Source: Vitis vinifera (Eukaryota; Streptophyta; Magnoliopsida; Vitales; Vitaceae). From it: a DNA stretch of 64,000 bases. A program made the translations under genes and the position numbers. Positions 3,605-63,978 of the stretch are shown one piece after another. The first letter of the stretch is position 1. Every line of letters starts with the position of its first letter. The notes beneath the pieces were generated by a model. It was not told the origin of the DNA and searched no databases. It was given only the letters and a program-made list of their open reading frames with translations. The DNA is taken from contig NC_081812.1 of assembly GCF_030704535.1 (NCBI RefSeq), forward strand, positions 17,803,501 through 17,867,500, written 5' to 3'.

Positions 3605-4612
3605 ATGCAAGAAACCATCCACCTTTCCTCCAAACACAGCTCCTTTCCCAAATCCCATGTTCTCCATTCCCACCATGATTTTTCTACACTTTCCCGCCCC
3701 AGAATCATCCACTTCCCCATCCTTTCCTCAAAAACTTCAATCACCATCCCACCCAAACCCTCCAAATCCCCAGAACTCCCTTCCATATCCCCACCTTCCT
3801 CTCCCGACCCTCCCGACCCTCACTCCCAATTCGAAGAAAAAATGCTCTACCTCGACTCCATCGGCCTCGATCTCTTCTCTCTCATCAACGACCATCCTCC
3901 CATCGTCTGCGCATCCCTCGACGACATCAAATCCACTGTTGATTTCTTGTACTCCATGGGCTTTACCGCGCTAGAGTTCTGCCGCATCTGCGGCATGTGC
4001 CCGGAGATTCTCAACTCCCGCGTTTCGGACATCGTTCCCGTTTTCACCTTTCTCCTCCGCGAAGCCCGAGTGGACGGCTCCGATTTGCGCCGCGTGGTTA
4101 ACCGGCGCCCCAGATTGCTCGCTTGTAATGTCAAGAACCGCCTCCGCCCCACCCTCTATTTCCTCCAGAGCATAGGCATTTCAGAGGTAAACAAACACAC
4201 CAATTTGTTATCATGCAGCGTTGAAGAAAAGCTGATACCCAGAATTGATTACTTAGAAAAAATTGGGTTTTCGAAACGGGACGCAGTTTCCATGGTCCGG
4301 AGGTTTCCCCAACTATTCAACCACAGTATTAAAGATAATTTGGAGCCCAAATTCAATTACTTCGTGGTGGAAATGGGTAGGGAACTGAGAGAGCTGAAGG
4401 AGTTCCCACAGTACTTCTCATTTAGTTTGGAGAATAGGATAAAGCCTAGGCACCAGTGTTGTGTGGAAAAAGGGGTGTGCTTTCCTCTCCCTATAATGTT
4501 AAAGACCACTGAAGCCAAGTTTCATGGTCGATTGGAGGTATGTTGTAATTCTTCGGGGCCTTTGAGAACTTCTCCTCTGTGGTGTACAAATTGTGATGTT
4601 AATTCAAAATAG
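3605..4612 (+). CDS. Plastid mTERF-domain protein, probable EMB3114-type
   Basis: Intronless gene for 335 residues. mTERF proteins are helical-repeat nucleic-acid-binding proteins that act in organelle transcription, splicing or translation. The frame stays open upstream to a TTG at 3503, but the first ATG is at 3605. Residues 1-75 are Ser/Pro/His-rich with few acidic residues, as in a plastid transit peptide. From about residue 78 come repeated roughly 30-residue units with the typical Leu/Pro pattern: LYLDSIGL, MCPEILNS, RRPRLLACNV, LLSCSVEEKL, RFPQLFNHSI and EFPQYFSFSLENRIKPRH. The neighbouring E2F gene matches the Arabidopsis order mTERF (At2g36000, EMB3114) then E2FA, which supports that orthology. 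SOLDAT10 (At2g03050) is the main alternative. The C-terminal tail after residue 310 is Cys/Ser-rich and outside the repeats. Confidence 0.88.
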   Translation: MQETIHLSSKHSSFPKSHVLHSHHDFSTLSRPRIIHFPILSSKTSITIPPKPSKSPELPSISPPSSPDPPDPHSQFEEKMLYLDSIGLDLFSLINDHPPIVCASLDDIKSTVDFLYSMGFTALEFCRICGMCPEILNSRVSDIVPVFTFLLREARVDGSDLRRVVNRRPRLLACNVKNRLRPTLYFLQSIGISEVNKHTNLLSCSVEEKLIPRIDYLEKIGFSKRDAVSMVRRFPQLFNHSIKDNLEPKFNYFVVEMGRELRELKEFPQYFSFSLENRIKPRHQCCVEKGVCFPLPIMLKTTEAKFHGRLEVCCNSSGPLRTSPLWCTNCDVNSK

Positions 4613-8274: not shown

Positions 8275-11200
8275 ATGTCTGGACCTCGAGCTCCCACCCG
8301 CTCCGCGCCTCCGCCGCCTTCCTCTGGTCAGATCCTGCGGCCGATGAAGCGTCACCTCCCCTTCACGTCTACCAAGCCGCCGTTCGTCCCTCCTGACGAT
8401 TACCACCGGTTTTCGTCTGCCGATGCTCACGGGGTTGCCAATCACGAACCTGAAGGCATTGTCGTCAAGTCCCCTGTGAGCTTGATGTTTCTCTTTGCGA
8501 ATTGGATGTTTTTTGGGATTGTATTGAATTCAAATTTTGTTGACATTACTTTTAAATGTTTTGGTTTGATAATTTTATTCTGATTTTCGAGTGCTTGGGC
8601 TTGCGCATTTCGCGATCTATGTGTTTCTTGGTAATTTCGCAGAGATGGAGTTTGGCGCCTACAAAAAGATTTGAGTTTGGTATTGCACCGAACAGCTTGA
8701 TATTATCTTTGTGCTAGTTTGATTTGGAAAAGCAACGGTTGCGAAGAAAAAAAAACAAAAGGAAAATAAGAAAGATGTTAAACAACTGGAGTGTCATCTG
8801 TGCAGAATGAGTAAAATTAGTGAATGATTCAAATTCAAAATATTTTTTATGTGAAGTGAGTTTATGGATGAACTTGCAAGCTTCTTTTAGATGTTATGCC
8901 TTATTGAACTGTGAATTGTAAGACTAATGCCTTTGTTTGTAAATTAATGTAAAGGATTGGGTTGGATATACATACCAAGGGTTCAGGGAGAGGTTGAAGA
9001 TGATAGTTCTTTGGAATTTAAATCTGCACAAGGCTTAGCTGGCTTCTCTATTTTGGATTATATCATATTAAGTTGCATAAATTTAATTTCTTGTCCCTAT
9101 CTTGCATTGGTGAAAACCGGGTAGTTGGTTTAAGAGGGATTTTTTTTCTTTTTTCCTGAAATCAGATCTGATTAAATTGCTGTGGCTTTCTCTTTATAAT
9201 GACTTAATGAGTTGTTCAGGTTGGCTTTTATTTCTCCTTTTATGATTATGCATTTTTAATTCTTTAAATTTTTTTCATAAATTTGTGCAAGGTTTATGGT
9301 ATTGTAGCACACAGAAGTTTAAGCAAAGTTTTACCATATACATTCTGTTTGAATTAATGATGCAATCATTGTCCTAGATGATACTTGTGCTTTCTTTGAG
9401 TGAAATCTTTGCCTGGGCACTTGAGATGCTGCCAAAGGGAATCACAAGTATATGCTTTGTTAACGTCAATTGGCTGTGAAGAAAGTTTATTGTGGATTAC
9501 CTTGCTTGATGCTTGAATTGTTTTATAAAAATTGTGCTTGGTTTTTCTCTTTATCTTTTTTTATTTTATTTTCTTGGATTTTGTTGAAAATCCTTTTATG
9601 ATTTGTTGTGGTTGAAAATTGTCCTTGTCATTTTCCTTATTAGACTTAATGCATTCAAAATGATCTTCAGTAAAAAACTGTATGATTCCTTTACCGTTTG
9701 AAGATCTTTTGATTTTAGTTTACTAATCATGAGTTAATTACAGGCATTATGACGTTGACTTATATGTAGTCTTGAAGCATAATCATGTACAGTTGTGTTG
9801 CACTTTCTGTTATAGTCACTAATATTTCTCAGTTCTACACACCATAGGTGAGGGTGTATGCCAAGGTCCAAAAGATATTGTGGTTAATGTGTCTCCTATA
9901 TTTCAATCATTGTTAAAGTTTGCTGCCCAAATCAATGCTTGTACCCCATTATGTCATATTATCATAAACTGGATCTGTTGTGACTATTAAAAGAAAGAAT
10001 ATCATGGTCAGTTTGTCCTCTGTATGTCACTAATTTCAATTCTACAAACAAATTGCTGTTTCTCAGCAATTGAAGCGGAAAAGTGCAATGGATGACAATG
10101 AAGTCGGATCTAGTGAATGGACTGCCAGTCCTGGATATGCTGATGCAGGTAACAGTCCCTTTCGAACTCCTGTTTCTGGAAAAGGGGGAAGGATATACAG
10201 CAAGTCAAAGGTCTCAAAGGGCAATGTATGTGGACCTCAGACCCCTGTGTCAAATGCTGGTGAGAAATGTTATCCAATATCTTTGTAGTAATTTCTCATT
10301 TGTGATCAGGATACTATGATACGAACTTTAGTGAAAAAATAGTCTGGGAAATAGATTGTGTTAGATGGTTCAAATCAGATGCTTTCCCCCAGCATAAATG
10401 TATTTTCAGAGTGCAGTTCATACTCCACAGGGCACAAAGGAAAAGAATCTCATTAGATGGTTTCTGTTTAACTTGCAGGTTCCCCTTCTACTCTTACTCC
10501 AGCTGGCAACTGCCGCTATGACAGTTCGCTAGGTAATATTTGAAAGTGATTGCATCTAAGATTAGTTCTTTATATTTAACTAGATGCTACTTTAAGCTCT
10601 CATATGTGGTGTGAGTGACAATAATGTGCCACAACTTCTCAGGTCTTTTAACAAAAAAGTTCATCAATTTGATCAAGCATGCAGAGGATGGTATTCTTGA
10701 CCTAAACAAAGCTGCTGAGACTTTGGAGGTGTTCATTTTTCTATTTAAGTACATGTATAATATAAATTACATGCTATTTTAATTTAAGGTCTTTTATACA
10801 AACAGGTTCAGAAGAGGCGGATATATGACATAACAAATGTTCTGGAAGGAATTGGTCTCATTGAAAAGAAGCTCAAGAACAGGATCCGCTGGAAGTAATC
10901 CTGAAATATTTTATATCTCTAAAAATTTGACTGCTTTTATCTTAGGTTTGAGTTGAGATTTTAGCAAGCATTTGGAGAACATGTAACTCATCTAAGCATT
11001 GGTTGAATGATTGATTAGGGGGCTTGATGTTTCAAGGCCAGGGGAGGTTGATGATGATGTCACCATTTTACAGGTATAAAAATGTATATTGGTTGATTGC
11101 CATGTAAACGCTTGGGACTAGGTTTATCTTGATTTATGAAAATCATCACATGATCTCTTGTTCATTATGTAATATTAACCATGATATGAAACAAAAAAAC

Positions 11201-13433
11201 AAAAAAACAAAACAAAACAAAACAAATAAACCAGAAATGAAGGAATACAACCACTTTTGTGCTCTCCGGATGGTTGAGACTTCATCTTGTGGTTTGGCAG
11301 GCAGAAGTTGAAAACCTTTCCCTGGAAGAACGCAGATTAGATGATCACATCAGGTTATGGTTTATTAACTTTTTAGAATCAGTTCTGTATCATATTTTTA
11401 GAATCATTTCTGCCATCTTAAAACTATTGGATAATACTGATGATGCTCCCACCCTGTTACAGGGAAATGCAGGAAAAGTTGAGGGATTTGAGCGAAGATG
11501 AAAACAATCAAAAGTAAAATCTCTCCTCCACATGCCTACATTGAGTTATGTAAAGATAATTCGAATTTTTACTCACACAACAATACCCTTCTTCTTCTTC
11601 CAATTATTCTAGGTGGCTTTTTGTGACTGAAGATGACATCAAGGGCCTACCCTGCTTTCAGGTTAGTTATGTTGTAGCGATACCCTTTTTCTAGGGCTGC
11701 TGTAATTGTCTCTTATCTTCAAAGCTCACTTCCCCCTGATATCTTAGCTAATTAGTAATTCAAAATTTTATGATTTGCTTCTAGCAGAATGAGACCCTTA
11801 TAGCAATTAAAGCTCCACATGGGACCACTCTGGAAGTTCCAGATCCTGATGAGGTAAGTGCAGTAGAAAAATTTGAAGGAAAGCTCATGTTATATTCTAC
11901 ACTTTGAGTTATTAACATATGGAGGAGCCTGCTTCTCTATGCACCAGGCTGTTGACTATCCACAGAGAAGATATCGTATAGTCCTTAGAAGCACAATGGG
12001 TCCAATCGATGTCTACCTTGTCAGGTATTCTTGCCTTTTCTAATGGGGCAGAAGTATTTACTTTGGCACATTTTTAATCCATATCCCATCTGCAACTCCG
12101 CATTCCTCTTTGTGTTGGTTGGATGATGGACAACTTGGGATCCTTTCTAGTCCTGATATTCTTCTCTTTCTTCTCTTCTTTCTTTTCCCTCTTTCCCTGG
12201 CATTTGTTCTTTAGTCAATTTGAGGAAAAATTTGAGGAGATGAATGGGACTCCGCCTCCTTTGAGCTTTCCTCTTGCATCAAGTTCAGGGTCTAATGAGA
12301 ACCCATCAACAGAGGTCGTCATTGCTGATAGCAGTGGGAAGGAACTTGAACCTCAAGATGGTTATCAAATGTGTTCTGATCTTACTGCATCACAGGAGTT
12401 TATCGGAGGAATCATGAAGATCGTTCCTGATGTTGATGTAAGTTTTGTTTTTTGAGTGATTTTATGAAAATACAACGTTAAAGTTTTGTTCTGGTTTTTT
12501 AGGTGTACTGTCTTGGACACTGCTTTGTATTTCTCATTGTACTGGGGTTGAGCCCTTTCCATGATGCCTTAGTCAATATTTTTTTACTTATCAAAAGAGA
12601 AAAAGGGTTTCTGAAGATAACTATGAATTTACCATTGGCATAATTAGACCATGGAAATGGATGTCTACAAATTTAACTTTTGAATGAGGACAGAAACATC
12701 ATTCACATTTCTATCATCTCTACCTAAGTTGTAGCTCACCTGGCATGTATTCAGTAACTTGAAGTCCCAGAACAGGATCTCTTTATATAATTATCGTGAT
12801 CAAAATAAATTTTGAGATATTTCTGAGGCTTACTTTATAATAGACTACCTTTTCTTTTCAAAATTTCTTTGTAAAAGATAAAAGTATAGATCATCCAAAC
12901 TAGTCTGATCATCTTAATTCTTTTGTATGTTAGACATCTTATGTGGAACCTATTTGTCGGTGAGACCTAACTATTCAAATGTGGACTTTGCCCTTAAGAA
13001 ATGGGAACTAAGGAGCTTGTGGAAGCTCTGGATGAAAATTTGTAATTGTACTATTATTTTCTTGTAAAATTTCCAATAATTTATGATTGGATTTTCTGGA
13101 ATTCAACATATGTACACTGGCTAAGTGTTTCTTGTTCTTGTTACAGAGTGATGCTGATTACTGGCTTCGATCAGATGCAGAAGTTAGCATTACAGATATG
13201 TGGAAGACAGACTGTATCCTCCCTTAATGTTGCTACATTATTATTTTTGCATACTTTTTGCAGTGAATATGCTCAATTCCTTGACTCCAACTGTAGCGTA
13301 TGTTGAATGGAATGGAGTGGATATGCTTAACGCAGAGTTTGGAATGGCTGATGTCAGTACTCCACTGCCTCAAACACCTCCATCTGGCCTTACCGAGGGG
13401 CCGTCTACTGCTGTTAACCCTACACATAGGTGA
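8275..13433 (+). CDS. E2F: E2F transcription factor (E2FA/E2FB group)
   Basis: Cell-cycle transcription factor that pairs with DP and binds TTTSSCGC sites at S-phase genes, under retinoblastoma control. Fourteen exons: 8275-8475, 10067-10259, 10479-10532, 10643-10728, 10806-10894, 11019-11073, 11301-11353, 11463-11513, 11613-11661, 11788-11853, 11948-12024, 12215-12437, 13147-13213, 13264-13433. All borders are GT-AG and the phases join to 477 residues. A Pro-rich N terminus precedes the winged-helix DNA-binding domain (about 147-211) with the RRIYD contact motif and [13 protein letters not shown] leucine-zipper-like dimerisation segment (220-262) and marked box (262-330) follow. The RB-binding motif is at 402-418 ([16 protein letters not shown]). 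Having both a DP-dimerisation region and an RB motif makes it a typical activator-type E2F, not a DEL-type. Position suggests a co-orthologue of Arabidopsis E2FA and E2FB. The start ATG follows a CT-rich leader from about 8060. Confidence 0.96.
8608..8658 (+). promoter_or_regulatory. Candidate E2F-binding sites in E2F intron 1
   Basis: TTTGGCGC at 8651-8658 is an exact match to the plant E2F consensus TTTSSCGC. TTTCGCGA at about 8608-8615 is a near match 36 bases before it. Both lie in the first intron, less than 200 bases after exon 1, where autoregulatory sites would be effective. Binding is inferred from sequence only. Confidence 0.45.
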
Positions 13434-16400: not shown

Positions 16401-17947
16401 AGGTTGCTCTTCTCCCTTATGGAGAGCATTAATAAAAATAAAAATAATCTCATTTGTCAAAGTACCATATTCTTCTTTTTTATGTGAGACTTTCGAGTTA
16501 GGGATATACTTGATTGATTTTTGTAGTCTTTCACGATCGCAACATGGTTATTTGGAGTATTATAAGAACAATCCTAGAAGACTTAACATAAAAATTGTAA
16601 CAAATCAGTAAAAGAAAAAAAAAAATCTCAATTGTTTATTATTTTTGGAATAGAATATTTCTAGAACCAACATGAGTAGGATGCTGCCTTGTGTGAAATA
16701 ATTAAATAAAAATATAAAAATAACATTACCGAACAAGTCAAGGATGACCATAAAAACCAATCACTGTTAGGAGTAAATAAGTGTCAACAAAAAAGAATTG
16801 TGCCTTGAAACCAAAGTTACAAAGATCTAGTGGTAATTTTGTACATGTGCTTTGAGAATCCAGAGCAAGACATGATCCCCACCACAAAATAAAATGACAG
16901 GCTCAGGTAATGTCATGCCCATGGGTATGTTAGTTGAGACTTGAGGGGAGTGGCTGTGACTTATCCGACCAAGACTTGTATACGTGAGCTGCACAAAACA
17001 AGGGAAAAAACAATACCTAATGAACAACGAGGGCGGGCCAGGCCTTCATACTCCGTATCATAAATGTTCACCAACAAACATATTGAAAATATACACCCAC
17101 AAAATAATAAAGCCGAGACTGTCTCGGTCGTCGCTCATCTGTATTAGCTCTTTCAGTTGGTCTGCCCTCTCCTCCTCCATTCTTTTGTTCTTATGGTCAA
17201 CATACCTATACTATACTGGTTGTTTGGAATCATTCCTCCTCCTCGTTTCCAAGGACGTGGGTTGGTCCATTTCCCTTAACCCAATTGCTTTTTGGCTTTT
17301 TTGGTCGATTTTACGACTTTATGAGAACCTGCCTTGTCGCACATCATTTTAAACATTCAGCGTTTTCATGGGTTTATTTTTATTTTTTTCTAATAGATTT
17401 CTCATGATAGTCTCTACCTCGTGAATTTTATAACCAATAATTCTTTAGAGTTGTGTTTTGTTGACGCTTGAAGCACCATTCAGAAGGAGACCCTAGCATC
17501 CAAACGCGACTTTCTGGGAGATCATGATGACCCTTTTTTTTCTTATAACGGATGGGTCCAGGGTGCAAAAGTTGTTGTCACAGTGGGGATAAATTGAAAA
17601 TACGAAGGCAGAAATGGGATAAAAGCAAATTCAACAGAGTGGATGACATATATCTATGTGTATACATCAAAAACGAAAAACCACACCGAATAAGGACGTT
17701 TACCATATAATCCAATAAGCGTAAGTCATGTTGTAACGCAGACGAAGAGCAGCAAAAGGCAAGCCGCCGGAGGAGGGAAGCTAAAGGGCTGAAAGCCATA
17801 CGATTCATTGGCACCACTGCGAGAAAAACATCCACAGGGTATGGTATGATCCATGACGGGTGATCTGGGGGAGAGCGAGTATCACTGAACCTCCCCACAA
17901 CCACAACCACAACCATCAGTCCCCGTCTCTTCAACATCCAGTCAACC
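13434..17947. other. E2F 3' region and intergenic spacer
   Basis: The first kilobase (to about 14660) is less AT-rich and is probably E2F 3' untranslated sequence. Beyond about 15000 it becomes strongly AT-rich with long A and T runs (for example 15632-15649). The stretch 16990-17350 has mixed composition but no recognisable domain. The last 250 bases are the leader and promoter of the next gene. No further gene is supported. Confidence 0.45.
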
Positions 17948-18502
17948 ATGGTGGACGACTCCGCCTCCATCTCCCACCCGCCGCCCTCTTCCAATCTTCG
18001 CCGTAGAAACTCCATCGGCACAGCTGCTATCCCCACAAAGCTCACCCTCCCATCAAAGGCCCACTACAGCTCCAGCTTTCCACGCCCAAACGGCGTCCGC
18101 GTTTCATCCTCAACGTCGTCATCGTCCCCCCAATCCTCCTTCCCCAATGTCGATTTCGAGCTCATCTCCCTCAAATCCCTCGCCTACACTTCCCTCAAGG
18201 ACCTCCTGCCCTCAACCTCCGCCGCCCAGTCTCCGACGGCTGCCGGCACCGGTTCCGGCTCCTGCTATGAGATCTCCATCCGCAACCGTCTCGTCAAGCA
18301 AGCCGCCTGGGCCTATCTTCAACCTATGTCTGCTTCTCCGGGATCATCCGGCGGCCGGCTCTTTGACCGCATGTTGCTCGGATTCTCCATGGAGTGCTTA
18401 AGGAATCGGGTCAGTACTTGTCTTGGATTCATCAACCGCCACATTTTTTCCGCTATAATCCGTGCTTTTGATCGGATTCTACGAATGATTGGGGTCCGAT
18501 GA
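17948..18502 (+). CDS. Unrecognised plant protein, 184 residues, intronless
   Basis: A single open frame from an ATG with strongly coding-like composition (GC-rich, C at third positions) unlike its surroundings. The N-terminal 95 residues are Ser/Pro-rich and probably disordered, with an early basic patch LRRRNS. The C-terminal half is denser and helical-looking: SCYEISIRNRLVKQAAWAYL (about 104-123), then RLFDRMLLGF, and a hydrophobic/basic end (INRHIFSAIIRAFDRILRMI) that could be an amphipathic helix. I recognise no domain, signal peptide or clear membrane span. It converges on the HVA22 gene, with stop codons 277 bp apart, so their 3' ends may overlap. I judge it a real gene of unknown function, probably plant-specific. 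Confidence 0.75.
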   Translation: MVDDSASISHPPPSSNLRRRNSIGTAAIPTKLTLPSKAHYSSSFPRPNGVRVSSSTSSSSPQSSFPNVDFELISLKSLAYTSLKDLLPSTSAAQSPTAAGTGSGSCYEISIRNRLVKQAAWAYLQPMSASPGSSGGRLFDRMLLGFSMECLRNRVSTCLGFINRHIFSAIIRAFDRILRMIGVR

Positions 18503-18779: not shown

Positions 18780-20611
18780 TCACTGATCCGGTCTTGAGTT
18801 TGAGCGCCTGAGTCTCAGGCGAACCGCATGTAGCTGATTTTCGCCATCTCCCTCTGGGCCGGCTTTAGAATCTGGACTGGTGATGAAGCCATTCTCTGCC
18901 TGCATTTGTACGTGTTTGGGGATAGAAGGTTGAGAAATATCGTGATTGATAGTGGTAGATGGGGTAGCTTGTGCGCTCTTCTTGCTGTCTTGGCGTGTGG
19001 ACTTTCCTTCTTCTACTTCCTTCTGCAAATTTTAGGTTTTAAGTTTGCAGTGAGGCAGAAGAAAAGAACCAAAAACCCTATTGGTCTAATAATTTGTTTT
19101 ATGTGAGTGATTTGTGTCTATTCGTAAAACATTGAATTGACGAACCATTTGGTTCCATTACATTGGCATTGCATCTCTTTAGGCATATAAATTTACTTGT
19201 TATAAGGTCCCAGAATGTGGGAGTAGATAACTATAGTTTTATGTATTACTAATGAATTAGTGATGTCAACTGTCACACATTCCCGGAGGGGTGGAAAAGG
19301 GGGTAAAAGGAATTTGGTTCTACACCAAAACCACTGCAATTCACCTCAAAAATGTATTTAGGAGGAAATTTAGATTCTACCTCAGAGCCACCGTGTGACG
19401 GCATCCTAGCAGACTGGGCAGCCAAGAACTGGAGCATTTGGACGAACGTAGTCTGTCCGAACTTGGCGCAGTGTTGCCAATAAAAGATGGCCAAGTCCCA
19501 CACCCTGGCCCTCAATTCCAATAGCTTCCTATCTATGTCCGTCTCATGCTTTGCTACATAAGGCCGCAACAACACTTCATACACGTACCCTGTTCCCTGC
19601 ATTAACCCAACAAGTTTTCTCTTATTCTTTCATCATAATCCCTTATTTTTGGTCCCTAAATTCTCTCCTTTTTTACCTTCGTCTTGGGGTACCACAAGTA
19701 GATGATGAATGCCAACTTCATCTCGCCATACATGGGCAACCTTCACAGGAATAGTAGCATGAGAATTCAATGCACCCAAATACTACCTACAAATTCCTAC
19801 TGGGGGGGATTTGGCATACCATGAAATAAAAATGTCAGCAAACCTCTCTGTGACAGTCAGCATTGCCACAATGATCCTGAAAAATTCGTGATAATTAAAA
19901 TTCCATTGGTAATATATACAAGTTTAGGATGGGTAAGTGGAATGGGCCATGTCATCCTTTAATTCAATGGAGATAGTGACATTCCAATTTATTTCCACAA
20001 GGAAACATTCCAAATTGATCAAATGATCCTGCCAGCCAATTTATAAGAATTTCTCTTCAATTCGTTGGACAACCAACAACTTTTTAAGTTGGTGAGGTCC
20101 TACTCTGTAATTATCATACGTGTGGGATGTGGTTAGATGTTGATGTCATTCTCTGTTTTCGTGAATAATACTGTGCTGAAGATTTATAATGCTGAGATTA
20201 GATCATATGAAATAGGCATTAAAAAGATTAAGAAAAATCAAGAAATCATTAAAAGCCTCCACAGTTTAATAGAAGATCAGAATCAATTTCAACTACAACC
20301 ATAGAACTCGAATGCTCAAAATCGAAGAAAAAAAGAAAGAAAAAGCCTTCTCACCAGTATTGACACCAGAAGCGGAGTTCTTCGATTTCAACCTTGTTCT
20401 TCTCCACGATTTTGTAGCACTCAAATGCAGGATATGCATATCCAAGAAGCATCCTGCCATTCCAACAGAATTAAAAATTCCAAATCTCGTCGGAGTCGAC
20501 CGTGGAAAACAGATTCAAATAAATCAGATGAAAAGACCAAAAATGAATGAGTAGAAAAAAGATTGTTCGCATCACATACAAAAGACTTCTGGTGATGAAA
20601 TCTCCCAACAT
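18780..20611 (-). CDS. HVA22: HVA22-like protein (TB2/DP1/Yop1 reticulon-like family)
   Basis: HVA22 proteins are ER-membrane, hairpin-forming relatives of yeast Yop1 that shape tubular ER; several are induced by ABA and stress. Six exons on the minus strand: 20611-20580, 20453-20355, 19876-19820, 19740-19677, 19596-19381 and 19022-18780, giving 236 residues from an ATG start (MLGDFITRSL). The TB2/DP1 domain covers about residues 5-100: LLGYAYPAFECYKIVEKNK, RFWCQYW, a hydrophobic hairpin (IIVAMLTVTERFADIFISW), then LPMYGEMKLAFIIYLWYP and TGYVYEVLLRPY. The 80-residue tail is polar, Ser/Lys-rich and ends in RLRLRRSNSRPDQ, as in the longer HVA22 h/i/j group. The exon-5 donor is uncertain: GAG/GTAGAA at 19381 and GAG/GTGAAT at 19345 are both in phase. 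Position next to E2F suggests an HVA22J orthologue. Confidence 0.9.
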
Positions 20612-25060: not shown

Positions 25061-28000
25061 ATGGATCATGAAAATTTACTTCCAAGTGGCAGGAGCCTTG
25101 CCAATTTTCGACTCTGCAGTGTGTCTGGGTATACTCCAGTTTGCTATCTTTTTTCAGTTTTTGGTTAAGGATTTGTTGATGATGAGTACATGACTGATCT
25201 GATCTCTTAACCTATTCTGGTCAGTTATACAACCGAGTTACTTGATCTTCATGCTGAAGAACCTAAATTGCATGTTCTATTCATCCCTGGAAATCCTGGT
25301 ATGTGTTATGTGAACCCACATGTTCTATTTTGAGCAATACCGTACAAATTAGAATCCTGTACTAAAAAAATCCACACAAGATTATGTGCTCCACATTTCT
25401 CCCTTCGCTATGAAAGGCAGAGACAACCAAAATTCCATTAATTTCAAAAGTGTTCTTGTTACATCAGTTATATGGGTTTCAGTATAAATCATTAGAGATT
25501 TCCTTTGTATTTCATGATTAGAATTAGGAATTGGGGTGGTCATCACAGGTATTGTTTCATTTTACAAGGACTTTGTGGAGTCACTCTATGAGCTACTTGG
25601 AGGAAGTGTATCTGTGACAGGCAAGGAACTGGTTGCTGCTTATACATGTTCTTTGCATGTGCATACCCAAATTTGGACCTTTAATTTTAGTGCTAATGGC
25701 TGTGTCTTTGTGTTCATCATCAGCTATTGGGCATGTATCACATACAAAAAAGGTACTTCTCATTTTGCCAACATAAGTTTAAACAGTGTCAATATCGCTG
25801 TGTACCCTGTTATTGACATTGCCTCTGGTGTTTCGAGCGTTTATGATTCTACATAGCTGGTTCCCTTTACCTTCTAAGAAAGCAGCATTGACCTGGTAGA
25901 TAGCCAGAACAAACTTTTAGCTAAACTTTTATAAACATTAATCTTAAAAAGCTTAACATTTTGTGTGTAGCTAGTAAAAATAATTTGGAATTAAGCTTTT
26001 TCAAGCTGATTTGAGTTGAGGAGTTCTGTGACTCAATCAGTAATGGATAGATGTAAAATTTATGTAGCTGATATAATTTTTAAGTATATACATAGCATTT
26101 GTATATACCAAAAATACTGGGGTACTTAGCCTTTAATGAATGCTATAACTTTGTAAATCTTGTTAGCTAAAGATGTTCTGCCATTGCTGGTGCCTTCTTG
26201 ATGCATTTAGAAGTGTTAAGAGTCAGTCTGATGACATTTTGTTATATATTCTATTGGTGTCAAAATTTTCAAATAATATGGTCATTTGCTCATTCCTTGT
26301 CTATTTTTCCTTTGCTTTATTTTGCTTCTGCAATGTGACTCATATCATTGCTTCCACTTTTCATGGAAAATAACATGTACTATAAATTTGTGAAAATTTT
26401 AAGTTTGACTAAATAGAAAAATGCAACAAATTGATTTTGACAAGTCTTAGGTGCAAAATTGTAGATACTTGGAAGTATATGTCTTCGAACATCCCTACAT
26501 CTATGTTAGATTTGTTTGATTGGCTGGTTGATTGGAAGTATATGTCTTTTGCCTTTTGGTGCCCTTTGTGGGCTATTTGTGTACTTTGGTGCACCCTTTT
26601 TTTAGGCATTACTTATAAATTTTTTTCTAAATATTTTTTTTTCCTTGTGCTTTTTCTTTGTGCAATTGTGAAATAAAATCTGTAGTTTTCAATGTAGTTT
26701 GGGTTTGAGACCATGAAGTGGTTTGCTATGTTTGCTTATAGTGCTTTTTCTTTGTGCAGTTGTGAAATAAAATCTGTAGTTTTCAATGTAGTTTGGGTTT
26801 GAGACCATGAAGTGGTTTGCTATGTTTGCTTAATGAAACTAATTTATTCCTATCTTCCTGAGATCCATCCTATGCAATACAACTTGATTTGATGTTTTAT
26901 TTTTAGTTGTTTACTAGCATGGCTCTTGTTCTTATATGAAGTTTAATCTTCTTTGTAGAACTGGGAACATGGAAGGTTGTTCACATTACAGGACCAAATT
27001 GATCATAAGGTAATCCTGCTTGCCTTTTTGCCCTTTCTTCTTTTTTCTTTTTTTCCCTTATTCTTATTATTAGTTGTGGTGTTAAGAAAATGTTTTGCCT
27101 GGTAAAAGTGATCATTATCTTTTTATCTTCAATAACATGCTGTTGGGAACCTTAATGCCTAGGAAGCAAGGAAATGTGGATAAGTTCATGTCATCTATAT
27201 TTATGGAGAACTGATATTGGCACCTGCTAAATACATTGAGCTGCATGATTTAGCAATCCACTAAAGCAAAGTTGTAAACTGCACTAAGGCCACAATTTCC
27301 AAATCGATTAACTCTTCCCCAAATAAAACCTATAAACTGTTGAGCTCAGTTTCCTTTAAGAAAGCCAATTCTAATATCTGTATCTTTATTGACTCTATTT
27401 ATTAAGAATTTGATTCCTTCTTTCCAAATCTGTGTCCTTTTTTTCAGATTTGGTTAATCAAAGTGCTATGCTTTACCTCTATGTTGGTAAAAATTATAAT
27501 TCCCATTTGATCTCCTTTTTGCAGATGGACTTCATCCAACATGAGCTAAAAAATATTGATGCTCCTATTTTACTGGTAGGATCATATTCTTTTTGTTATT
27601 AGCTTTAAAATGTTAATTATGGCTTATATTTTACTGAGGGGTGTTTGGGGCTGGGTTTGTTTATGTTTGTGTTGGTTGCAAAACTGCAAACTCTGTCCAA
27701 AATCACGTTAGGAACCTTGGATAATGATTACTAGTTTGAGGGCACTTGTTAGTTTAATGGCATGGGTTGGCTTTGCTTTGAGATTCCATTTTGGGGAGAT
27801 CAGGACTCAGGAGTACAAACTCCTTAATATTTGTGCTATCTCCATATGCAGTGATTTTTGTACTGTGATTCTCCTGTGCATGAGACGTGCATACCATTGC
27901 TGCTTCTTTCCTTCTAAGTTGCTTTCCACAAGACACTTATCTTTGTTCTGCTTATGTCAGTGATTGGCCTTTAGCTGATTAAGCTTATAAGACAACATAA

Positions 28001-31000: not shown

Positions 31001-34000
31001 ATTTGTCTCTTTTTTAAAACTACAACCCAATATGAACTCTTTGTTCCATGTCAGCGGCCATCCCATGTTACCACCTCTAAATGTTATGAGTGACCATCTT
31101 GACAAGTTATCAGTCAACACCCTGGAAAGTTACTAGTTACCACTTTAAGGAGTTATAAGAAAACCTTATAAGTTGTCAGTTTGAAGGTCGTAGTCCCACC
31201 TTGTAAGTAATTGGTAGTTACCTTAAAAAATATTAATAATCATCTTGAATGTTATCGAATCCTCTCCTTGAAACCTGGAAAATTACTAGTCCCTGCCTTG
31301 AAAATTATTAGTTGCCACTTCGAAGCAATCAATTCCAACCTTGTTGTTTGTGTTCACCATGACAAATTATTAGTCATCATCTTGAATAATTATCAGTCAC
31401 CACGTTGAAAGTTATTTTTAACATTTTATCCCCACTTTGAAAATTTTTTATGGAAGATGGTAAAAGTCATCTGAATAGAATTTTTTCTTTTTAGCAGTTG
31501 AGGCAAATGGGTGAGGGAAAGAAGTACAGAAATTTAGACATGTTTACCGCCTGGTGATGATGGTGAAAATTCACAATATTTGTGTAACCAATATTATTGA
31601 TATCTTTATCCTTGCATAAGTTGCAGTTTGGCCTAAGCCCTTGAGGACAAATGTGATTTATAAGATAGTGCCAGCTATTATGGTACTAGCACAGGCATCA
31701 AATTTGATTCTTCAATTGTCAATACAAGGATGGGCATATTGAATGTTGAATTTTTTGTATTAATTTCCATTGCATATTTCATTTGTTTGCAGTACCACAC
31801 AATTCGGAATGTGCTCTATATGGCAATGACAGAGTTCACAAGGGTAAGACTTCTTTACCCACAATATATATGTGGTGGAGAGTTAAAATAGCTTAATCAT
31901 GGTGATGTTTTGGACTACATCTTGAAACATCACATCAGGTCATCATCATTGCCAACCCAGCTTGCACCCTCAACTATTTTTTTTCTTTATCTATGTTTTT
32001 CACCCAGTTTCAGTATTTCATATTTATTTATTTTTATTTTATTTTATTTTTTACTTTTGAGTCTATATCTATGTTTTTCTCCATTATCTTATGATTAAGA
32101 TTTGATCCTATGATTCATTTATTAACAACCATTGCCTATGCATTCGCAGTCTAGCTTCTAAGAAGTTGAAGGCAATTTTCGACTACCATATTCTCTTAAT
32201 CATCATTGGCTTTACATGATTTTTATTTTCTTTTCTCCTTGTTGATTCTTGAAAATTTTATGTGGTATTATCTCTATGGGTGTTGGTCTTTGTTTGCATT
32301 ATAGCTATAATATTAATGTCTTCCTGTTCAGCATTGTCTGTATGCGATTACAACATTCAATCTTGTATTGACCATGGTCCATGAGTATTAGCTTTCAGAA
32401 CCTCTGGATTGGGTATTTATGAGAGAAAAGCGAAGCCAGATAGCTTTTTTATTTGGTGTTGATGATCACTGGGGACCGTTGCAAATGCTTGAGGAGGTAA
32501 GTGATTGATTCAGTATTTTTAGTTGAGCATGTGTTCTAGTTTGGCCCTCCAAATTTGACTCTGACATCCTTTTCCTTTTGCTCCTTGACATCTATTTTGC
32601 TTTTGAGGTTAGATTTCTTGTTATGACTTGTTTGGCTGATATTTTCAAGCAGTATTTTCTATAACATTTCCATCTAGACCAATATTCTTCAAGGACTTGT
32701 TTGATCTTTTTTGGGATTTAAAACCTAGGTGGATACGCTACTAGTGCCATTTACTCTAATGTTCCCAACTAGGAATATCCTGATTTTGTATTGATTGATG
32801 GACTCTGATCACCAAGTTTGCTTCTAGACTTTTTTTTTTTTTTTTTTTTGAATGAGTAAAGAGAGGTAATAATATATTATAAAGAGACACCAAAACAGTG
32901 ACTCATAGAAAACAAAAAAGATACACTAATCCCCACCCAGCTGAAACAAAAACAGCTGTGAGCAAGGAGGTACACAAAAGACCTCACCTTCAATAAGAGC
33001 TTAACCAATCAATGAAACCAACTAACGTCGAAGGACCATCTTTAATGAACAATTTCGTCTCCGACCAAAGAAAACAAACAAAAGAACTTTTGAGTTTTTG
33101 GATGGATAACACATCATCTTCAAACACAATTCTATTCCTTGCCTTCCAAACTGTCTAAAAAATGCATAAGGGACCTACTCTCCAAACTTCCCTCCTCTTC
33201 TTACCCACAAAGGACCCATCCCATCCCAAAAGAGTCACCCTAACTGACGCAGGCAGCACCCATTGCACCCCAAAGAGAGTGAAAAACAGCTCTCATAAGG
33301 TCCTTGTCTTGGCACAATGGAAAAGAATGTGATCTATTGATTCTTCATGCATTTGACAAAGGTAACATCTATTTGCTCACAACCATCCTCTCTTCTGAAT
33401 TTGATCCAAAGTGAGAGCTCTACCCCATGTTGCTTTCCACCCCAAAAAACTCACTTTGGGCTACACACAAGATTTCCAAATGATATTCGATGGGAAGGAA
33501 ATTGTAGAGCTTGGTTCTAAGGCTTTGTATAGGGATTTAACAGAAAACTTCCCGCACTTAGTCTCCTTCCAAAGCACCCTATCCTCATCCCGCTGAACAC
33601 TCTTCCTATTGAGACTCAATAAGAATCTGTCCACCTCATCCACCTCCCAATCATTAAAGGGTCTAGAGAAATGCGGGCTCCAACTCCCCCCTCCGTTAGT
33701 GGAACTCCACACATCATTCACCCAAGCGTCCTTAGAGACGGCTAGAGCAAATAATGAAGGAAAATAGACGCAAAAAGGTAAAGCCCCACACCAATTATCC
33801 TTCCAAAATCTCATCCTCCGTCCATTACCCACCATAAAGGAAAGTCTACTACTTACTAAGTACCATTCCTTCCTAATTGCTTTCCACCACCCCACACCAT
33901 GGCCATCCCTCACTTCCTTGGTACATCATCCCCCTTGCTCCTCCCATACTTTTCCTTTATCACTTGATTCCAAAAGACCCATCTCTCAATTGCAAACCAC

Positions 34001-36237
34001 CAACTCCATTTGTATAGAAGAGCCTTATTGAGGATAAATAGGCACTTCACCCCCAACCCTCCTTTTCTTTTGTCTAAGAAAACAGTCGTCCACTTTACAA
34101 GATGAGTTTTCCTCTCAAGAGCCCCACCTCCCCACAAGAAATCCCTTTGAATCTGATCTAACCTCAATCTGATTATCCTGGGTAAATAAAGTACAGACAT
34201 GTAATAAATGGGCAAATTAGGCAAAGTGCTTTGTATCAAGGTGATTGTCCCTCCTTTGGAAATGTATTGTCTCCTCCACACCATCCCAAGCAACCACAGA
34301 CTTAAAAGCCGCACCCAATGACAATCCTAAGTAAAAGAAAGGAAGACTCCCTACTTTACAACCAAGTTTTGTAGCAAAATCCTCCACATTTTCCACACAT
34401 CTCATTGGAATTAACTCACTTTTCTCCAAATTAATTCTCAACCCCAAAATGGCCTCAAACCACATAAGTGTTCAACATAAATACGTCATTTGATCCTGAG
34501 AAGCCTCATAGAATACAAGTGTATCATTTGTGAACAATAAGTGGGACACTTGAGCCCCTTCACCACCTCTACCCCTCACCTTACAAGCTGTCAAAAAGCT
34601 CCCATCCACAACTCTCTTTAGAAGACAACTAAGTGCCTTCATTGCAATCACAAACAAATACGGAGAGAGAGGATTCCTTTGCCTTAAACCCCTAGAGCTT
34701 TGGAAAAAGCTTGAGGAAGTCCCATTAATCAAAACGGATAACCTAGCTGTGGAAATACACCACTGCATCCACCCTAGCCATTTCTCCCCAAAACCCATCA
34801 TACACAAAACTGAAAGCAAGAATGATCAGTCCACATGATCATACACCTTTTCAATATCAAGTTTGCACATCACCGCACATTCATTGCTCTTCAAAATCAA
34901 GTCTATGGTTTCATTTGCAACAAGGGCAACATCCGGAATTTGTCTACCCTCCACAAAGGCATTTTAGGCCTTGGAGACCACCTTTCCCACCACTAGCTTT
35001 AACCTATTTGCTAGCACTTTAGCCAACCACTTATACAACCCTCCCACCAAACTGATTGACCTAAAATCCCTTAAGTCTTTTTTTTTTTTTTTTGATAATT
35101 AAAATCCCTTAAGTCTTCTGCTCTCCCTTTCTTTGGGATCAAAACTAAGAAAGTTGCATTTAAACTTCTGACAAAAGAGTTGTGGTCATAAAACTCCCTA
35201 AAAAAATCCATGACCTCCTTCTTCACAAACCCCCAAGAAAATTGCCAGAAAGCTATAGAAAAACCATCAGGCCCTGGTGCTTTGTCCCCACTAAAACTCT
35301 TAAGAGCCTCAAAAACCTCCTCCTCAAAAAAAGGCTCTTCCAGCCTGGCCGCTTCAAGAGCCTCCAGCCTTGCAAAAGGAAAGGCCACTAATGTCGGGCT
35401 CCAATTTCCTGCAGTAGACAACTGAACCTTAAACACGTTGACCACTTCATCTCTGATCTCATTCCCTTCTGTTAACCAAGTACCATTGATTTTAACTCGA
35501 GCCATTGAGTTCCTCCTTCTATGAGCATTAGCCATCTTGTGGAAAAAACTAGTATTTCTATCCCCTTCTTTCAGCCACACTTCCATTGATTTCCGTCTCC
35601 AAGAAATTTCTTTTAGGAGGACCCATTTTTTAAAATCCTCCTTTGCTTCTCTCCTAGCTTCCATCTCATGAACAGCTAGTAGTCGGACTATCTCTTCTTC
35701 GTCCCAAAATTCCACCTGCTTCAAAGCCACAACCTTATTGACTTCGACTTATTGTTTGCTTCTAGACTTATGGTTACTTAATTTAGGGGTTTTGGCCATA
35801 GTAGATATATGTTCCTATGGGAGCCCTTGCAAGAATGGGATAATGGGAAATGAACTTTGGGGCTGGTTCCAAACATCTTGGAAAAACAGATAACTGTGGT
35901 GTCTATGGATATTTTACAACAATATTTTTATGGCAATATAGAGCGTTACGATGACAATTATACTGTTGTTTTCTCTTCATGTTCATTTTATCTAGTGATT
36001 CATAACTTTGCACTGCCTTCTTTTTCCCATTTGCTTTGCTATTTCTTCAGTTTGACATTAAGCTGATCTTTCACTTGTATTTTCTGCATACAGATTTCCA
36101 AGCAGGCCCCAGATGTTGCTCTATCAATAGAAAGAGAGGGCCATTCTCATGCTTTCTGTTGCACTGAAGCTGGCTCATTATGGGTAGCTCAGCATGTTGC
36201 AAACCTGATCAAGAATCAAATATCAAGTGCAGACTAG
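25061..36237 (+). CDS. LDAH: Lipid-droplet-associated hydrolase (LDAH), alpha/beta-hydrolase
   Basis: Alpha/beta-hydrolase of the LDAH (C2orf43) family, which associates with lipid droplets; its substrate is debated. Twelve exons: 25061-25128, 25225-25298, 25549-25620, 25724-25752, 26959-27009, 27525-27575, 28118-28177, 28289-28371, 30053-30200, 31793-31843, 32392-32496, 36094-36237. Phases join to 311 residues. The chain shows the oxyanion-region FIPGNPG (about 43-49), the nucleophile elbow GHSIG with Ser119, a probable acid Asp in GVDDHW (253/254) and a catalytic His in EGHSHAF (281/283). All triad parts are present. Intron 3 uses a GC donor. Intron 4 holds a 94-bp tandem duplication and intron 11 an antisense LINE that enlarges it to 3.6 kb. 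An untranslated first exon ending CTTGCAG near 24619 is possible. Confidence 0.93.
26647..26832. repeat. 94-bp tandem duplication in LDAH intron 4
   Basis: Two adjacent copies (26647-26740 and 26741-26832) both start GTGCTTTTTCTTTGTGCA and end TTTGCTATGTTTGCTTA. I see one substitution near the start (GCAATTG against GCAGTTG) and small differences at the junction. Such identity in an intron means a recent duplication, so it is likely to vary between individuals. Confidence 0.9.
32832..35753 (-). mobile_element. 5'-truncated L1-type LINE, antisense in LDAH intron 11
   Basis: The minus strand encodes LINE ORF2 fragments: a pre-RT region ([20 protein letters not shown]), reverse transcriptase ([38 protein letters not shown], where the usual FADD reads FTND) and a zinc-knuckle zf-RVT end ([18 protein letters not shown]). 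The endonuclease domain and ORF1 are missing. The frame changes several times and stops occur between about 34820 and 35070, so it is dead. The 3' end is an 18-base T-run (A on the element strand) at 32832-32849. GTTTGCTTCTAGACTT flanks both ends (32816-32831, 35754-35769), a 16-bp target duplication. Without it the intron would be about 660 bp. The exact duplication suggests moderate age despite the coding decay. Confidence 0.93.
35080..35099 (-). mobile_element. 20-bp micro-retroposon nested in the LINE
   Basis: Fourteen T followed by GATAAT, flanked by exact copies of an 18-bp sequence (TAAAATCCCTTAAGTCTT) at 35062-35079 and 35100-35117. On the minus strand it reads ATTATC plus A14: a poly-A tail with six bases of element, bounded by a target duplication. 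It is best explained as an extremely 5'-truncated LINE or SINE insertion that landed in the older LINE. Confidence 0.75.
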
Positions 36238-38820: not shown

Positions 38821-38821
38821 C

Positions 38822-38861: not shown

Positions 38862-39422
38862 ATGCCCACCAATAGGAGGAAGCTCCGTCTCAACACAGTG
38901 ACTGTAAACCTTGGTTGCCGTTGTCGGAGGCCGAAACTCTCCGATATCTTCAACCCCAAACCCAAAGCCAAAACAACTCCCGTTTGCCGCAGGCCGGATA
39001 CGTATCGTTCCTCTTCAAGCTCATGGGAAAAGGGTGGCTGCTCCACCGACCAAGACGACACCACCACCACATTCTCTCCCAACGTAGGCACGTCGTCGGA
39101 TTACTCCGAAACCGATTACGAAGCGAAGAGCTCTAAAAAGGTCCGTGGGTTCGGGAGAATCGGGGGGGAGAGCATGGCGGTGGAGAAAGACTCGGACGAC
39201 CCATATCTGGATTTCCGGCACTCCATGCTTCAGATGATCCTAGAGAAGGAAATATACTCGAAGGACGATCTTAGAGAGCTTCTCAACTGCTTCTTGCAGC
39301 TCAACTCGCCATACTATCATGGAGTCATTGTTCGAGCTTTCACTGAGATCTGGAATGGGGTCTTCTCTGTGAGGTCCGCTTCTCCAAAGCCCCATGGTTC
39401 CCGCAAGTCACGTGACTTCTAA
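38862..39422 (+). CDS. OVATE family protein, OFP10/OFP6-8-like
   Basis: Plant transcriptional repressor that partners TALE homeodomain proteins and TRM proteins and affects organ shape. Single exon, 186 residues; the frame extends nine bases further to a TTG, but the first ATG (MPTNRRKLRL) is used. The N terminus has the family's basic patch and cysteines (LGCRCRRPKLSDIF). The middle is Ser/Thr/Asp-rich. The OVATE domain at about 112-165 is complete: DPYLDFRHSMLQMILEKE, DDLRELLNCFLQLNS, YHGVIVRAFTEIW. A short basic tail follows. A CT repeat precedes the start. Its position between HVA22 and CAF1 agrees with Arabidopsis OFP10 (At5g22240) or the OFP at At2g36026. A second OFP gene lies 7 kb away in the opposite direction. 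Confidence 0.94.
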   Translation: MPTNRRKLRLNTVTVNLGCRCRRPKLSDIFNPKPKAKTTPVCRRPDTYRSSSSSWEKGGCSTDQDDTTTTFSPNVGTSSDYSETDYEAKSSKKVRGFGRIGGESMAVEKDSDDPYLDFRHSMLQMILEKEIYSKDDLRELLNCFLQLNSPYYHGVIVRAFTEIWNGVFSVRSASPKPHGSRKSRDF

Positions 39423-42590: not shown

Positions 42591-42595
42591 TTAGT

Positions 42596-43285: not shown

Positions 43286-43322
<37 letters not shown>

Positions 43323-43474: not shown

Positions 43475-43499
43475 TTAATATATTGGAGTTGACCAACTA

Positions 43500-53689: not shown

Positions 53690-55215
53690 GCAAACATGGG
53701 TCCACAAAAACAAAGTCCAAGAAACATATCCTTCATCTTCAAACATGATCTCACCTCTCCTTCAAATGTTCTCCTATTCTGCTAGTTCCAAGTAATCCAA
53801 AAGACACCTAAAGGAATCAGCTCCCACACTTCTTTGTGCTTGGCTCCGAAGGTGCTTCACCAATTAAGGGGAAGATCCTCAACCGAAGAGATGACCCAAG
53901 AAACACCGAACAAAGAGAACGTCAAAGCTCATAATCAGCAGTCCATTTGCAATGGATGAGGATATGATTAGCTGATACATTTTCTTAATTGCAAAGTCAA
54001 CACCTATTGGACAAGCTCCATCCTTTTCTCATAAGATGGTTAATAGTCGGACCTTTCTCCCAAGAAGCTTTCCACCTCAAAAGACAAACCTTGGAAGGCG
54101 GTCTTGCATTCCAAATTAGCTTAGCAGGGAAGTTGGGGACTTCACCAGACACTAGAGACAAGCTGTAAGGTCTGATAGAAAAGAGGAACCTTAACAATTT
54201 TCTATACCAATTTATCCTCCACATCACTAAAAACAGAAAAAGGAAACGATAGCTGCAAACAAGGACTGCACTGCATTCACTTCCCTATCAGAAAATTCTT
54301 CTTTGAATATGAGATTCCAGCAATCCCCTCCCAAAAATCTGCTACTCAACTATCCCTGTTTACTGTCATGTTGAAAAGACTCAAATGAATCAATCCTTTG
54401 GAGAGTACACACCACATCAAGAATCATGACAAAATTTGACCCTTGGGCTACCGCCTATGACAAACCTTGTTCTTGAGAGAAAGTCAGTCATATTCTTATT
54501 GATGGTTTTCCATAAAATAGACCCATATGTCTTCCCAACCTCCCTAGTCCACCTGCCCCCTTCCAACTCTTCATACTTTCTTGCAATCGCCTTTCTTCAT
54601 AAGCTTTCACACTCCAGAGCAAATATCTGAAACCATTTTCCAAGTACAGGCTTGTTGAGAGGCTCAAGCCTCTTAATACCCAAACCCCCAGCATATTTTT
54701 AAGCACGTGCAATAGACCACCTCACTAAATGAATCTTTTTCTCCAACTGTCCTCCCACCAACAAAAAGTCCCTCTGAATCATTTCTAGCCTGCTTATCAC
54801 CTTCCTCAAAATTATAAAAGCTGATAAAAATATATATGGGAAACTGGAATGCCTGCCCTTCAACAAAATAAGCCCTCCACTTTTGGAGAGAAATTGACAT
54901 TTTCACGAGATCAATCTTCTCTCGAATCTTTCCTCTATTGAGTCCCACACCAATAAAGACTCACACTCAACACCCTAAGGCAAACCTAAATACTTTGTGG
55001 GAAGACTACCCACCCTAAAACCCAACTCATAATATCATCTGATCTCCCTATCAAATTAGCTTGAGTTCTCTAAGTTGATTTCCTAGCCTCTAAGCATAAA
55101 GAATCCACCTTACATCAGCTAATAGATATTGTAATTTTCCACCTCACAAATCAGCAAAGTTTATTGGCAAAAAGGAAATGGAAGATGTTGATCTCCTCAC
55201 CCCTGTCAGGTTCCA
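53690..55215 (-). mobile_element. Degenerate LINE fragment, RT end plus zf-RVT region
   Basis: Minus-strand translations show L1-type ORF2 remnants in order: NIFHFLFANKLC near 55150-55200 (the RT FADD region, decayed), KINL/SELIP-like and GSLPTKYLGLPLG near 54990-55070, a GLGRLGRHMGL segment near 54530 and the zf-RVT segment KLIWNARPPSKVCLLRWKA near 54080-54120. Frames change repeatedly and no long open frame remains. I find no poly-A tail or target duplication, so both borders are approximate. It is older than the LINE in the LDAH intron, judging from heavier decay. Confidence 0.8.
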
Positions 55216-60274: not shown

Positions 60275-60326
<52 letters not shown>

Positions 60327-61875: not shown

Positions 61876-63978
61876 CTAGAAGTAGGTACCTTCAGGAGGC
61901 TGGACCAACTTCCGGTTTTGTGGCGCAGCCATCTCCTTCTTCAGCTGTGTCAGTATATCCTCCATGGTGTACTCCCGCTGCCAATTTGCCAGAATTCCAA
62001 ACTTCTTAGGTTCCACCTGTAACAAATGGATCCCATCAGACCTTGTCACCCAATTCAATTATCCATCCATAAATCAGATCTTGTTCCTGAATTTAACTAT
62101 TTATTCACAAATCGTCCAAACAGGCAAATCTTATAATAATATATTTATTGAAATGTTAAGTCCAATAATTATAATCTGCAGAAAAAACCAAATGGAAGAA
62201 CAGCAAGCGAAAGGCCTAAGGGCACTATATTTAACACTGAATGCATAGGGAATGCTAAAAGAGCAAAAAATAGAAACGCACCAGGCCTAATAGTGATAGC
62301 AATAATATTACTAGTACCAAGAATACTCCAAAAAAGAGAGAGAGAGAGAGCATGAGGCGATGGTGGTGGAGGTAGTGACAGTCAGCGTAGCACATACATA
62401 GAAAGTGGTAAAAGGCAAAGAAATACAAGGACACCATAAACCAAAAACCAGACGCCAAACACCAGCGCATCAGTAACAAAGCAGTTGTAGTGGTGTTAGT
62501 TGTGGTTAAAAGGAATGAATAAAAGAACACCAACCCCAAGCATCAAACATACCAACTCATCAGCAGTGGTGGTAGTGATGGTTGGCAAAGCAAAATACAT
62601 AGGAATTGGTAAAAGAGAGAAACTACAAGGACACCATAAACCAAATCCCAAACACCAACACACCAATACCAATGGTGGTAGCAGTAGCATTAGCTGTGGT
62701 GGTAAAAGGCAAAAAATACAAGAGCACCAACCTAACCCTGAGCACCGAACATACCAACTCATCAATAATAATAGTAGAATAGTCACTAAAATGATGATCA
62801 AACAATTCCAGGATAGTCCTATAACCAACGATTACAGAACTTTAGTCCCATTCCCACAGGACATAAGACAAATAGAACATGTACAGTGAATCAAACCAGA
62901 CTATACCCCCACCATTTTTAACAATTGGAAGTTGCAATTGCATAGCTCAATACTGAGAATCTGGAGATCATCAACTACAATGAGCATAAACACCACCAGT
63001 GCAACAACTGCATAACAAGACCAATTATAATGTAAAGGGATCAAAATTTTACCACTCCAGTTTCATGGTTAACACAAGTCATGTTGATCCGTGAATGAAA
63101 ACGGACACTTGGTGGCTTCTCTGGATAATCTTTGTCACAGAACAGCTTCAACTGATATATGCGACCTTCATGTACAGTCTGAAAAAAAATAAAGGAGAAG
63201 ATTGTAATGTGCTTGTAAGCTATCCATATCAGCAAGAAGTCAAAATCCAAAACCTCAACAATAGTACATTTCATTCTACAACAGAGTTTTTAACTCACTA
63301 AATCTCAAGTAAAACTCATTGACACACTGTTGTTTTGGGAAATAATTACTTCACACTTTGGATGCTTCTCCTTTGTATTTGAGAGGATTGAACCAAATAC
63401 GCACACCCCAACCAAAATTGAATTAAATTTAAATAATGAGGAAATGCCTGGAACCAAGCTTAGGAAGAAACCCCACATCATGCAAAGTATTCTAGTATAT
63501 ACTCACCACAATTGGCCATAGGTCGACCAGTCAAAGCATTTTCTGAATAACATGCTGAACTTAAATGGACGACATGCCACCAGGCTAGAAGTACCATCTA
63601 CCTGATTGGTTGATGCCTCCTCAAATGGTCTCAACTTCAAGACCACCTGAGGCATATCCTGTAAATTGAAAACCTATTTCACAATTTAAGTAGGCTAAAT
63701 TTCTCTTCTTCTTTTTGGGTCAAGACCAAGCCATAACAACATGTAGTATATCAACATATATAAGAGTGATGCTGATATTTGTCACGTAACAAGATCAAAG
63801 AATATATAAAGCATGTTGTTCTTTAAAAGGGCACTTACATTATGAGGACCGATGATGGTGCCAGTCCAAGAGCGCATATAAATGTCATCTCCATCATCCA
63901 TTCCATAGCTGACAGTACCATCTCCAATACCCTTTTCTCCACGTTCAAGTTCCTCAAGCAATCTGAAGTTTCGAGGGA
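61876..63978 (-). CDS. UEV1: Ubiquitin E2 variant UEV1/MMZ, 5' end beyond right edge
   Basis: Catalytically inactive E2-like partner of UBC13; the pair builds Lys63-linked ubiquitin chains in DNA-damage tolerance and signalling. Three exons are visible on the minus strand: 63978-63839, 63178-63053 and 62016-61876, GT-AG throughout with matching phases. They encode [91 protein letters not shown] and the end [10 protein letters not shown]. The E2 active-site cysteine position is not conserved, as expected of a UEV. The first short exon lies past base 64000; the visible part starts in codon Val before Pro-Arg-Asn. Position agrees with Arabidopsis UEV1C/MMZ3 (At2g36060). Confidence 0.95.
62360..62765. 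repeat. Diverged tandem repeat, ~200-bp period, in UEV1 intron
   Basis: ACAAGGACACCATAAACC recurs at 62425 and 62625, and CATACCAACTCATCA at 62548 and 62750, giving a period of about 200 bp. Each 200-bp unit contains two related ~100-bp halves, both with a GTGGTGGTAG-like start and a GGTAAAAGGCAAA-like core, so the array is about four diverged ~100-bp units. A GA microsatellite (62338-62350) borders it. Confidence 0.7.

Follow-up and report, generated by a model that had tools for sequence, protein, structure and literature searches.

A row of genes on contig C8 of the grapevine Vitis vinifera resembles the neighbourhoods of both E2FA and E2FB of Arabidopsis, the two activator-type E2Fs underlying much of plant cell-cycle genetics. 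To which of them is the E2F gene of this row orthologous, and when did the two part? The stretch analysed here, referred to as the window, comprises 64,000 nucleotides (C8:17803501-17867500), and the searched genome comprises 495.6 Mb on 21 contigs. An earlier note had read the window as the union of two Arabidopsis segments that lost different genes after a duplication within the Brassicaceae, and its E2F as co-orthologous to E2FA and E2FB.

Gene content of the window

The seven genes mTERF, E2F, HVA22, OFP, OFP, CAF1, and UEV1 that the earlier note had named are present in the named order (7/7), and all seven window families pass the curated Pfam cut-off. This part of the reading is borne out, and the row recurs on contig C6 (see below). 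The genes of the window are:

3605-4612, plus strand: mTERF gene, single exon; PF02536 with E 1.8e-41 for the open frame
8275-13433, plus strand: E2F gene, 14 exons, 466 aa; PF02319 and PF16421
about 19375-20452 (range of the matched exons), minus strand: HVA22 gene; PF03134 with E 6.3e-26 for a protein whose exon junctions were joined by eye
38862-39422, plus strand: OFP a (OVATE family), 186 aa; PF04844
46438-47127, minus strand: OFP b, 229 aa; PF04844
58418-59254, minus strand: CAF1-type deadenylase gene, single exon, 278 aa; PF04857
61879-63982, minus strand: UEV1-type gene, three exons in the window; PF00179

The E2F gene model was built from both genomic copies, C8 and C6. All 13 introns of the window gene are of the GT-AG type, the 466-aa frame runs without interruption, and the protein carries one winged-helix domain (PF02319) and one CC-MB stretch (PF16421), as a canonical E2F does. 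Located by family model and not by best-match ranking, three canonical-type E2Fs were found in the grape genome, on C8, C6, and C18; three are likewise given for Arabidopsis in the available text of a study of carrot E2Fs (PMC7994507).

At the HVA22 locus, additional 3' exons are likely to follow past the matched range; tblastn of the frames at this locus was noisy, its sole indication being the minus strand. The UEV1-type gene is truncated by the window end, since a likely first exon is situated roughly 3.4 kb past base 64000. Just left of the window, a LOG-type exon (C8:17796140, PF03641) and an aspartyl protease gene (C8:17785566) were found, and the conserved row therefore reaches beyond the seven reported genes. 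Among the sequences of solved structures, CAF1 matched nine and E2F five (query: a 430-aa model without two small exons), none of them a plant relative.

Several further features were observed. An open frame without Pfam match and with a transit-peptide-like start lies on the minus strand at 1808-2218, and another frame without Pfam match (212 aa, plus strand, 17864-18499) is located between E2F and HVA22. A 94-base tandem repeat occupies 26647-26832 in two copies, 98% identical. LINE-like reverse transcriptase frames extend on the minus strand over 33000-35750 and about 54000-54850 (RVT_1, E 9e-5, under the curated cut-off), with a longer relative at C6:24329565-24335512. As to the mTERF gene, a survey covering 25 mTERF genes of grape mentions chromosome 8 once in its available text, at chr8:20.07 Mb; the window gene (3605-4612) seems to be either missing from that survey or positioned elsewhere in it. 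Two mTERF matches elsewhere in the searched genome, C11:1834709-1835014 and C11:1835453-1835758, lie within the interval published for grape VvmTERF17 (chr11:1833849-1837293), in agreement with a grapevine source.

A second copy of the row on C6

Comparison of the window frames with C6:24200001-24350000, together with genome searches, revealed an inverted series on C6. It comprises aspartyl protease, E2F, OFP, OFP, CAF1, and UEV1; order and relative strand are kept at all six anchors, each of which lies on the strand opposite to its C8 counterpart:

24354196, strand opposite to C8: aspartyl protease, from the genome search
24292845-24283458, strand opposite to C8: E2F, gene model
about 24263738 (also 24263756), strand opposite to C8: OFP a copy, 56% to OFP a of the window
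about 24253769 (also 24253988), strand opposite to C8: OFP b copy, 50% to OFP b of the window
24238021, strand opposite to C8: CAF1, 70% to CAF1 of the window
24227128-24230378, strand opposite to C8: UEV1, exon matches

The two E2F genes have 14 exons each with the same intron phases, and their proteins are 75% identical. Within the 495.6 Mb, the C6 place is the top non-self match for the aspartyl protease, OFP a, CAF1, and UEV1, in the last case by bit score for all three exons. A counterpoint to the pairing of C8 with C6 is given by OFP b, whose top other match is C13:14434182 (67%), with C6 in second place (50%). Several unrelated families are duplicated with order and relative strand preserved, as expected of a gamma-type paralogous segment. 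Because C6 holds E2F, both OFPs, CAF1, and UEV1 in order, the ancestral segment held these five together.

A minus-strand tandem array of aspartyl proteases extends over C8:17695954-17787026 left of the window. It contains fragments and seven long matches, whose identity to the query, itself the seventh, is 49-51%; on C6 there is the one match at 24354196.

Three genes of the C8 series were not seen at the C6 place in searches that scored best-candidate matches. Among 28 such genome matches of mTERF none lies on C6, and the same holds for the 26 family matches and 10 protein matches of HVA22; the 11 best-candidate matches of LOG include two on C6, at 0.8 and 3.4 Mb, and none near 24.3 Mb. The C6 stretch as read reaches to within 4 kb of the aspartyl protease. 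The positions of mTERF, HVA22, and LOG are interior to the collinear series rather than terminal.

On C18, LOG, HVA22, and an E2F which we take to be E2FC-type by its sequence features occur within about 81 kb (C18:12021346-12102291), likely an older paralogous segment. The E2F is located at 12102028. The best non-self match of HVA22 (C18:12095770, 54% over 69 aa) lies 6 kb from it and that of LOG (C18:12021346) 81 kb from it, with LOG in an order unlike that on C8. A third E2F near HVA22 and LOG points to a single ancestral neighbourhood, in which E2F, HVA22, and LOG were probably adjacent before E2FC separated from E2FA and E2FB. If so, the absence of HVA22 and LOG from C6 is a loss; as their best other matches adjoin the C18 E2F, loss from C6 is likelier than gain on C8.

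Age of the duplication and a possible third segment

The E2F genes of C8 and C6 differ by a Ks of 1.07 (NG86) or 1.32 (YN00). Grape gamma duplicates have Ks values of about 1-1.3, and the E2F value lies within this range, as expected of an ancient event. For the other C8-C6 pairs, Ks amounts to 1.73 for CAF1 and 1.81 for OFP b (both NG86 only), and for OFP a it was not computable; the values of these pairs are high or saturated. The C8-C6 split is old, and judged by synonymous divergence the E2F pair fits the gamma hexaploidy of the core eudicots.

Grape chromosomes 6, 8, and 13 reportedly constitute one gamma set. A putative third copy on C13 is represented by a single gene, the OFP b relative at C13:14434182, which differs from the C8 copy by a Ks of 1.06/0.94. 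The family-model search of the genome found no E2F on C13, and the genome searches gave no CAF1 match there.

Comparison with Arabidopsis and carrot

The Arabidopsis neighbourhoods are taken here from AGI codes in the available text of papers. These sources give AT2G36010 for E2Fa, AT5G22220 for E2Fb, AT1G47870 for E2Fc, AT2G36000 for mTERF3, At2g36020 for HVA22J, At2g35990 for LOG2, AT5G22250 for CAF1b, and AT3G44260 for CAF1a. By these codes LOG2, mTERF3, E2Fa, and HVA22J are consecutive, and the four match LOG, mTERF, E2F, and HVA22 of C8; the neighbours expected of an E2FA orthologue are thus found in order on C8. Further, we take OFP15 to be At2g36050, UEV1C At2g36060, another OFP At2g36026, and OFP10 At5g22240, as given in the earlier note; the AGI codes of these four were not found in the literature searched. 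A table of 35 Arabidopsis mTERFs contains no AT5G22 or AT3G44 code. The neighbours of E2FA are hence of the C8 type, whereas next to E2FB, as on C6, there is CAF1 but no mTERF, so that the window most likely corresponds to the E2FA segment and C6 to the E2FB segment.

According to the available text of the carrot study, both the tree and gene synteny make DcE2F1 an orthologue of AtE2FA. DcE2F2 and DcE2F3 fall with AtE2FB, though with low bootstrap support and no clear synteny, and DcE2F4 is nearer to AtE2FC (PMC7994507). An E2FA orthologue in an asterid implies, provided that the tree is not misled, that E2FA and E2FB were already distinct when rosids and asterids diverged. As far as their available parts go, papers on bamboo E2F, pepper, Chinese cabbage OFPs, and grape mTERF genes do not settle the Arabidopsis match; the last reports six syntenic grape-Arabidopsis mTERF pairs, with mTERF3 in none of them. 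The literature search yielded no paper tying the paralogy of E2FA and E2FB to a whole-genome duplication in eudicots.

Protein comparisons were made with provisional rows of Arabidopsis E2FA, E2FB, E2FC, and CAF1 that have no database source; the following values are to be taken as a lead only. The identity of provisional E2FA is 64.9% to the window E2F and 61.4% to the C6 copy, that of provisional E2FB 57.7% and 60.6%, respectively. Of the sites that distinguish the window E2F from that of C6, E2FA shares 39 with the window and 20 with C6, E2FB 19 and 32, and E2FC 16 and 4. The four-row E2F tree separates window and E2FA from C6 and E2FB at 99/98, and a tree constrained to unite E2FA and E2FB loses 12.35 log units (AU p=0.0107). 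The informative sites are more evenly divided: 11 join window with E2FA and C6 with E2FB, 10 join E2FA with E2FB, and 4 follow the third split. Sites polarised by provisional E2FC place E2FA and E2FB alone together five times, C6 and E2FB four times, C6 and E2FA once, and window and E2FA not once; provisional E2FB forms a long branch in the tree. The provisional CAF1 rows are 73.5% and 76.8% identical to C6 and 64.7% and 64.6% to the window. We did not count these identities towards a C6 match, because the CAF1 tree leaves both models compatible (AU p=0.234) and because the outgroup row, too, resembles C6 (56.3%) more than the window (53.0%).

Origin of E2FA and E2FB

In our judgement it is quite probable that the window is a gamma segment, that C8 gave rise to the E2FA segment of Arabidopsis and C6 to the E2FB segment, and that the split of E2FA and E2FB predates the Brassicaceae. 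The genes of the window, the collinearity of C8 and C6 with its rough date, and the set of genes on C6 are direct observations; the assignment of the two copies to particular Arabidopsis segments is our inference. The window would be one of the paralogous segments remaining from the core-eudicot gamma hexaploidy. C8 would have retained aspartyl protease, LOG, mTERF, E2F, HVA22, both OFPs, CAF1, and UEV1; C6 would have retained aspartyl protease, E2F, both OFPs, CAF1, and UEV1; and C13 at least one copy of OFP b. The C8 copy would have become the E2FA segment and the C6 copy the E2FB segment of Arabidopsis. The window E2F would most likely be orthologous to E2FA, whose duplication with E2FB would date from long before the Brassicaceae. 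Afterwards, CAF1 would have been lost next to E2FA, and LOG, mTERF, and HVA22 from the C6/E2FB copy.

The rival account of the earlier note derives both Arabidopsis segments from the C8 copy, as Brassicales or Brassicaceae (alpha or beta) duplicates with differing losses, to which the window E2F would be co-orthologous. The window does carry the union of the named genes, the provisional rows hold nearly as many sites uniting E2FA and E2FB as sites for the favoured split, and the provisional CAF1 rows are compatible with a descent from the window side. However, this account provides no Arabidopsis counterpart for the C6 E2F despite three canonical E2Fs per genome, it conflicts with the carrot E2FA orthologue placed by tree and synteny, and joining E2FA and E2FB is disfavoured in the provisional rows (AU p=0.011). 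We therefore regard it as unlikely. A duplication of the segments within the Brassicaceae is likewise improbable in view of the E2F Ks of 1.07-1.32, the C6 locus, and the carrot gene. Co-orthology is probably wrong, as it was concluded with the C6 copy overlooked, a second E2F locus whose content agrees with the known part of the E2FB locus: CAF1 is present, and LOG, mTERF, and HVA22 were not found by the searches described above. What stands of the union is that the C8 order is common with the E2FA neighbourhood and that E2F, the OFPs, CAF1, and UEV1 are ancestral, as seen on C6; what lacks support is the origin of both segments in a Brassicaceae duplication.

A further alternative assumes hidden paralogy: E2FB would stem from the third gamma copy, on C13, with E2F lost there in grape, so that strictly E2FB would be orthologous to neither of the two grape genes. 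That a third segment exists is indicated by the closest relative of OFP b at 14.43 Mb of C13, and the lack of an E2F on C13 would suit the assumed loss. Still, provisional E2FB is nearer to C6 in both identity and differing sites, and CAF1, the companion of E2FB, has no match on C13; we give this alternative a slim chance. That the collinearity of C8 and C6 reflects coincidence or a recent segmental copy can be set aside almost entirely. No point in its support was found. Crude estimates, computed after the pattern was known, put the probability that four best matches fall close to a single place by chance at 6e-14 and that of the agreement in order and strand at no more than 9e-5, and a recent copy is excluded by the E2F Ks above 1 and by protein identities of 45-75% across the four aligned C8-C6 pairs.

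Returning to the gamma origin of the C8 and C6 segments, we lean, with less confidence, towards a wider scheme including C18. E2FA, E2FB, and E2FC of eudicots would all trace back to one LOG-E2F-HVA22 neighbourhood that was multiplied in several rounds of whole-genome duplication: an earlier round would have set apart C18 (E2FC-type), and gamma would have separated C8 (E2FA) from C6 (E2FB). The activators E2FA and E2FB would then be gamma ohnologues kept since the origin of the core eudicots and not Brassicaceae duplicates. Should this be true, distinct orthologues of E2FA and E2FB are to be expected in other core eudicots unless they were lost, and functional differences between the two should be compared across eudicots instead of being approached via a recent Brassicaceae duplication. 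More generally, where one outgroup window appears to unite two segments, paralogous segments in its own genome should be checked before co-orthology is claimed.

Comparison with known systems

The Arabidopsis E2FA neighbourhood (At2g35990-At2g36020) is like C8 in showing the four families in identical order, as far as the available sources go. The window differs in having CAF1, which according to the earlier note the E2FA segment lacks. In the E2FB neighbourhood (AT5G22220-AT5G22250), E2F and CAF1 occur together, a combination shared with both the window and C6; by the available codes it is without mTERF, and its content is closer to C6 than to the window. Outside the rosids, the carrot DcE2F1 locus provides an E2FA-type gene syntenic to AtE2FA (PMC7994507). 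The carrot study agrees in part with window as E2FA and C6 as E2FB; unlike the present analysis, its available text contains no occurrence of 'Vitis' (PMC7994507).

A palaeopolyploid block is an ordinary kind of finding, of modest use for naming and comparing plant E2Fs. The C8 window, its collinear C6 partner, the remnant gene on C13, and a Ks of about 1.1-1.3 are like the paralogous segments of the grape gamma set 6-8-13. There is no difference in kind: the window represents one more such block, resolved gene by gene.
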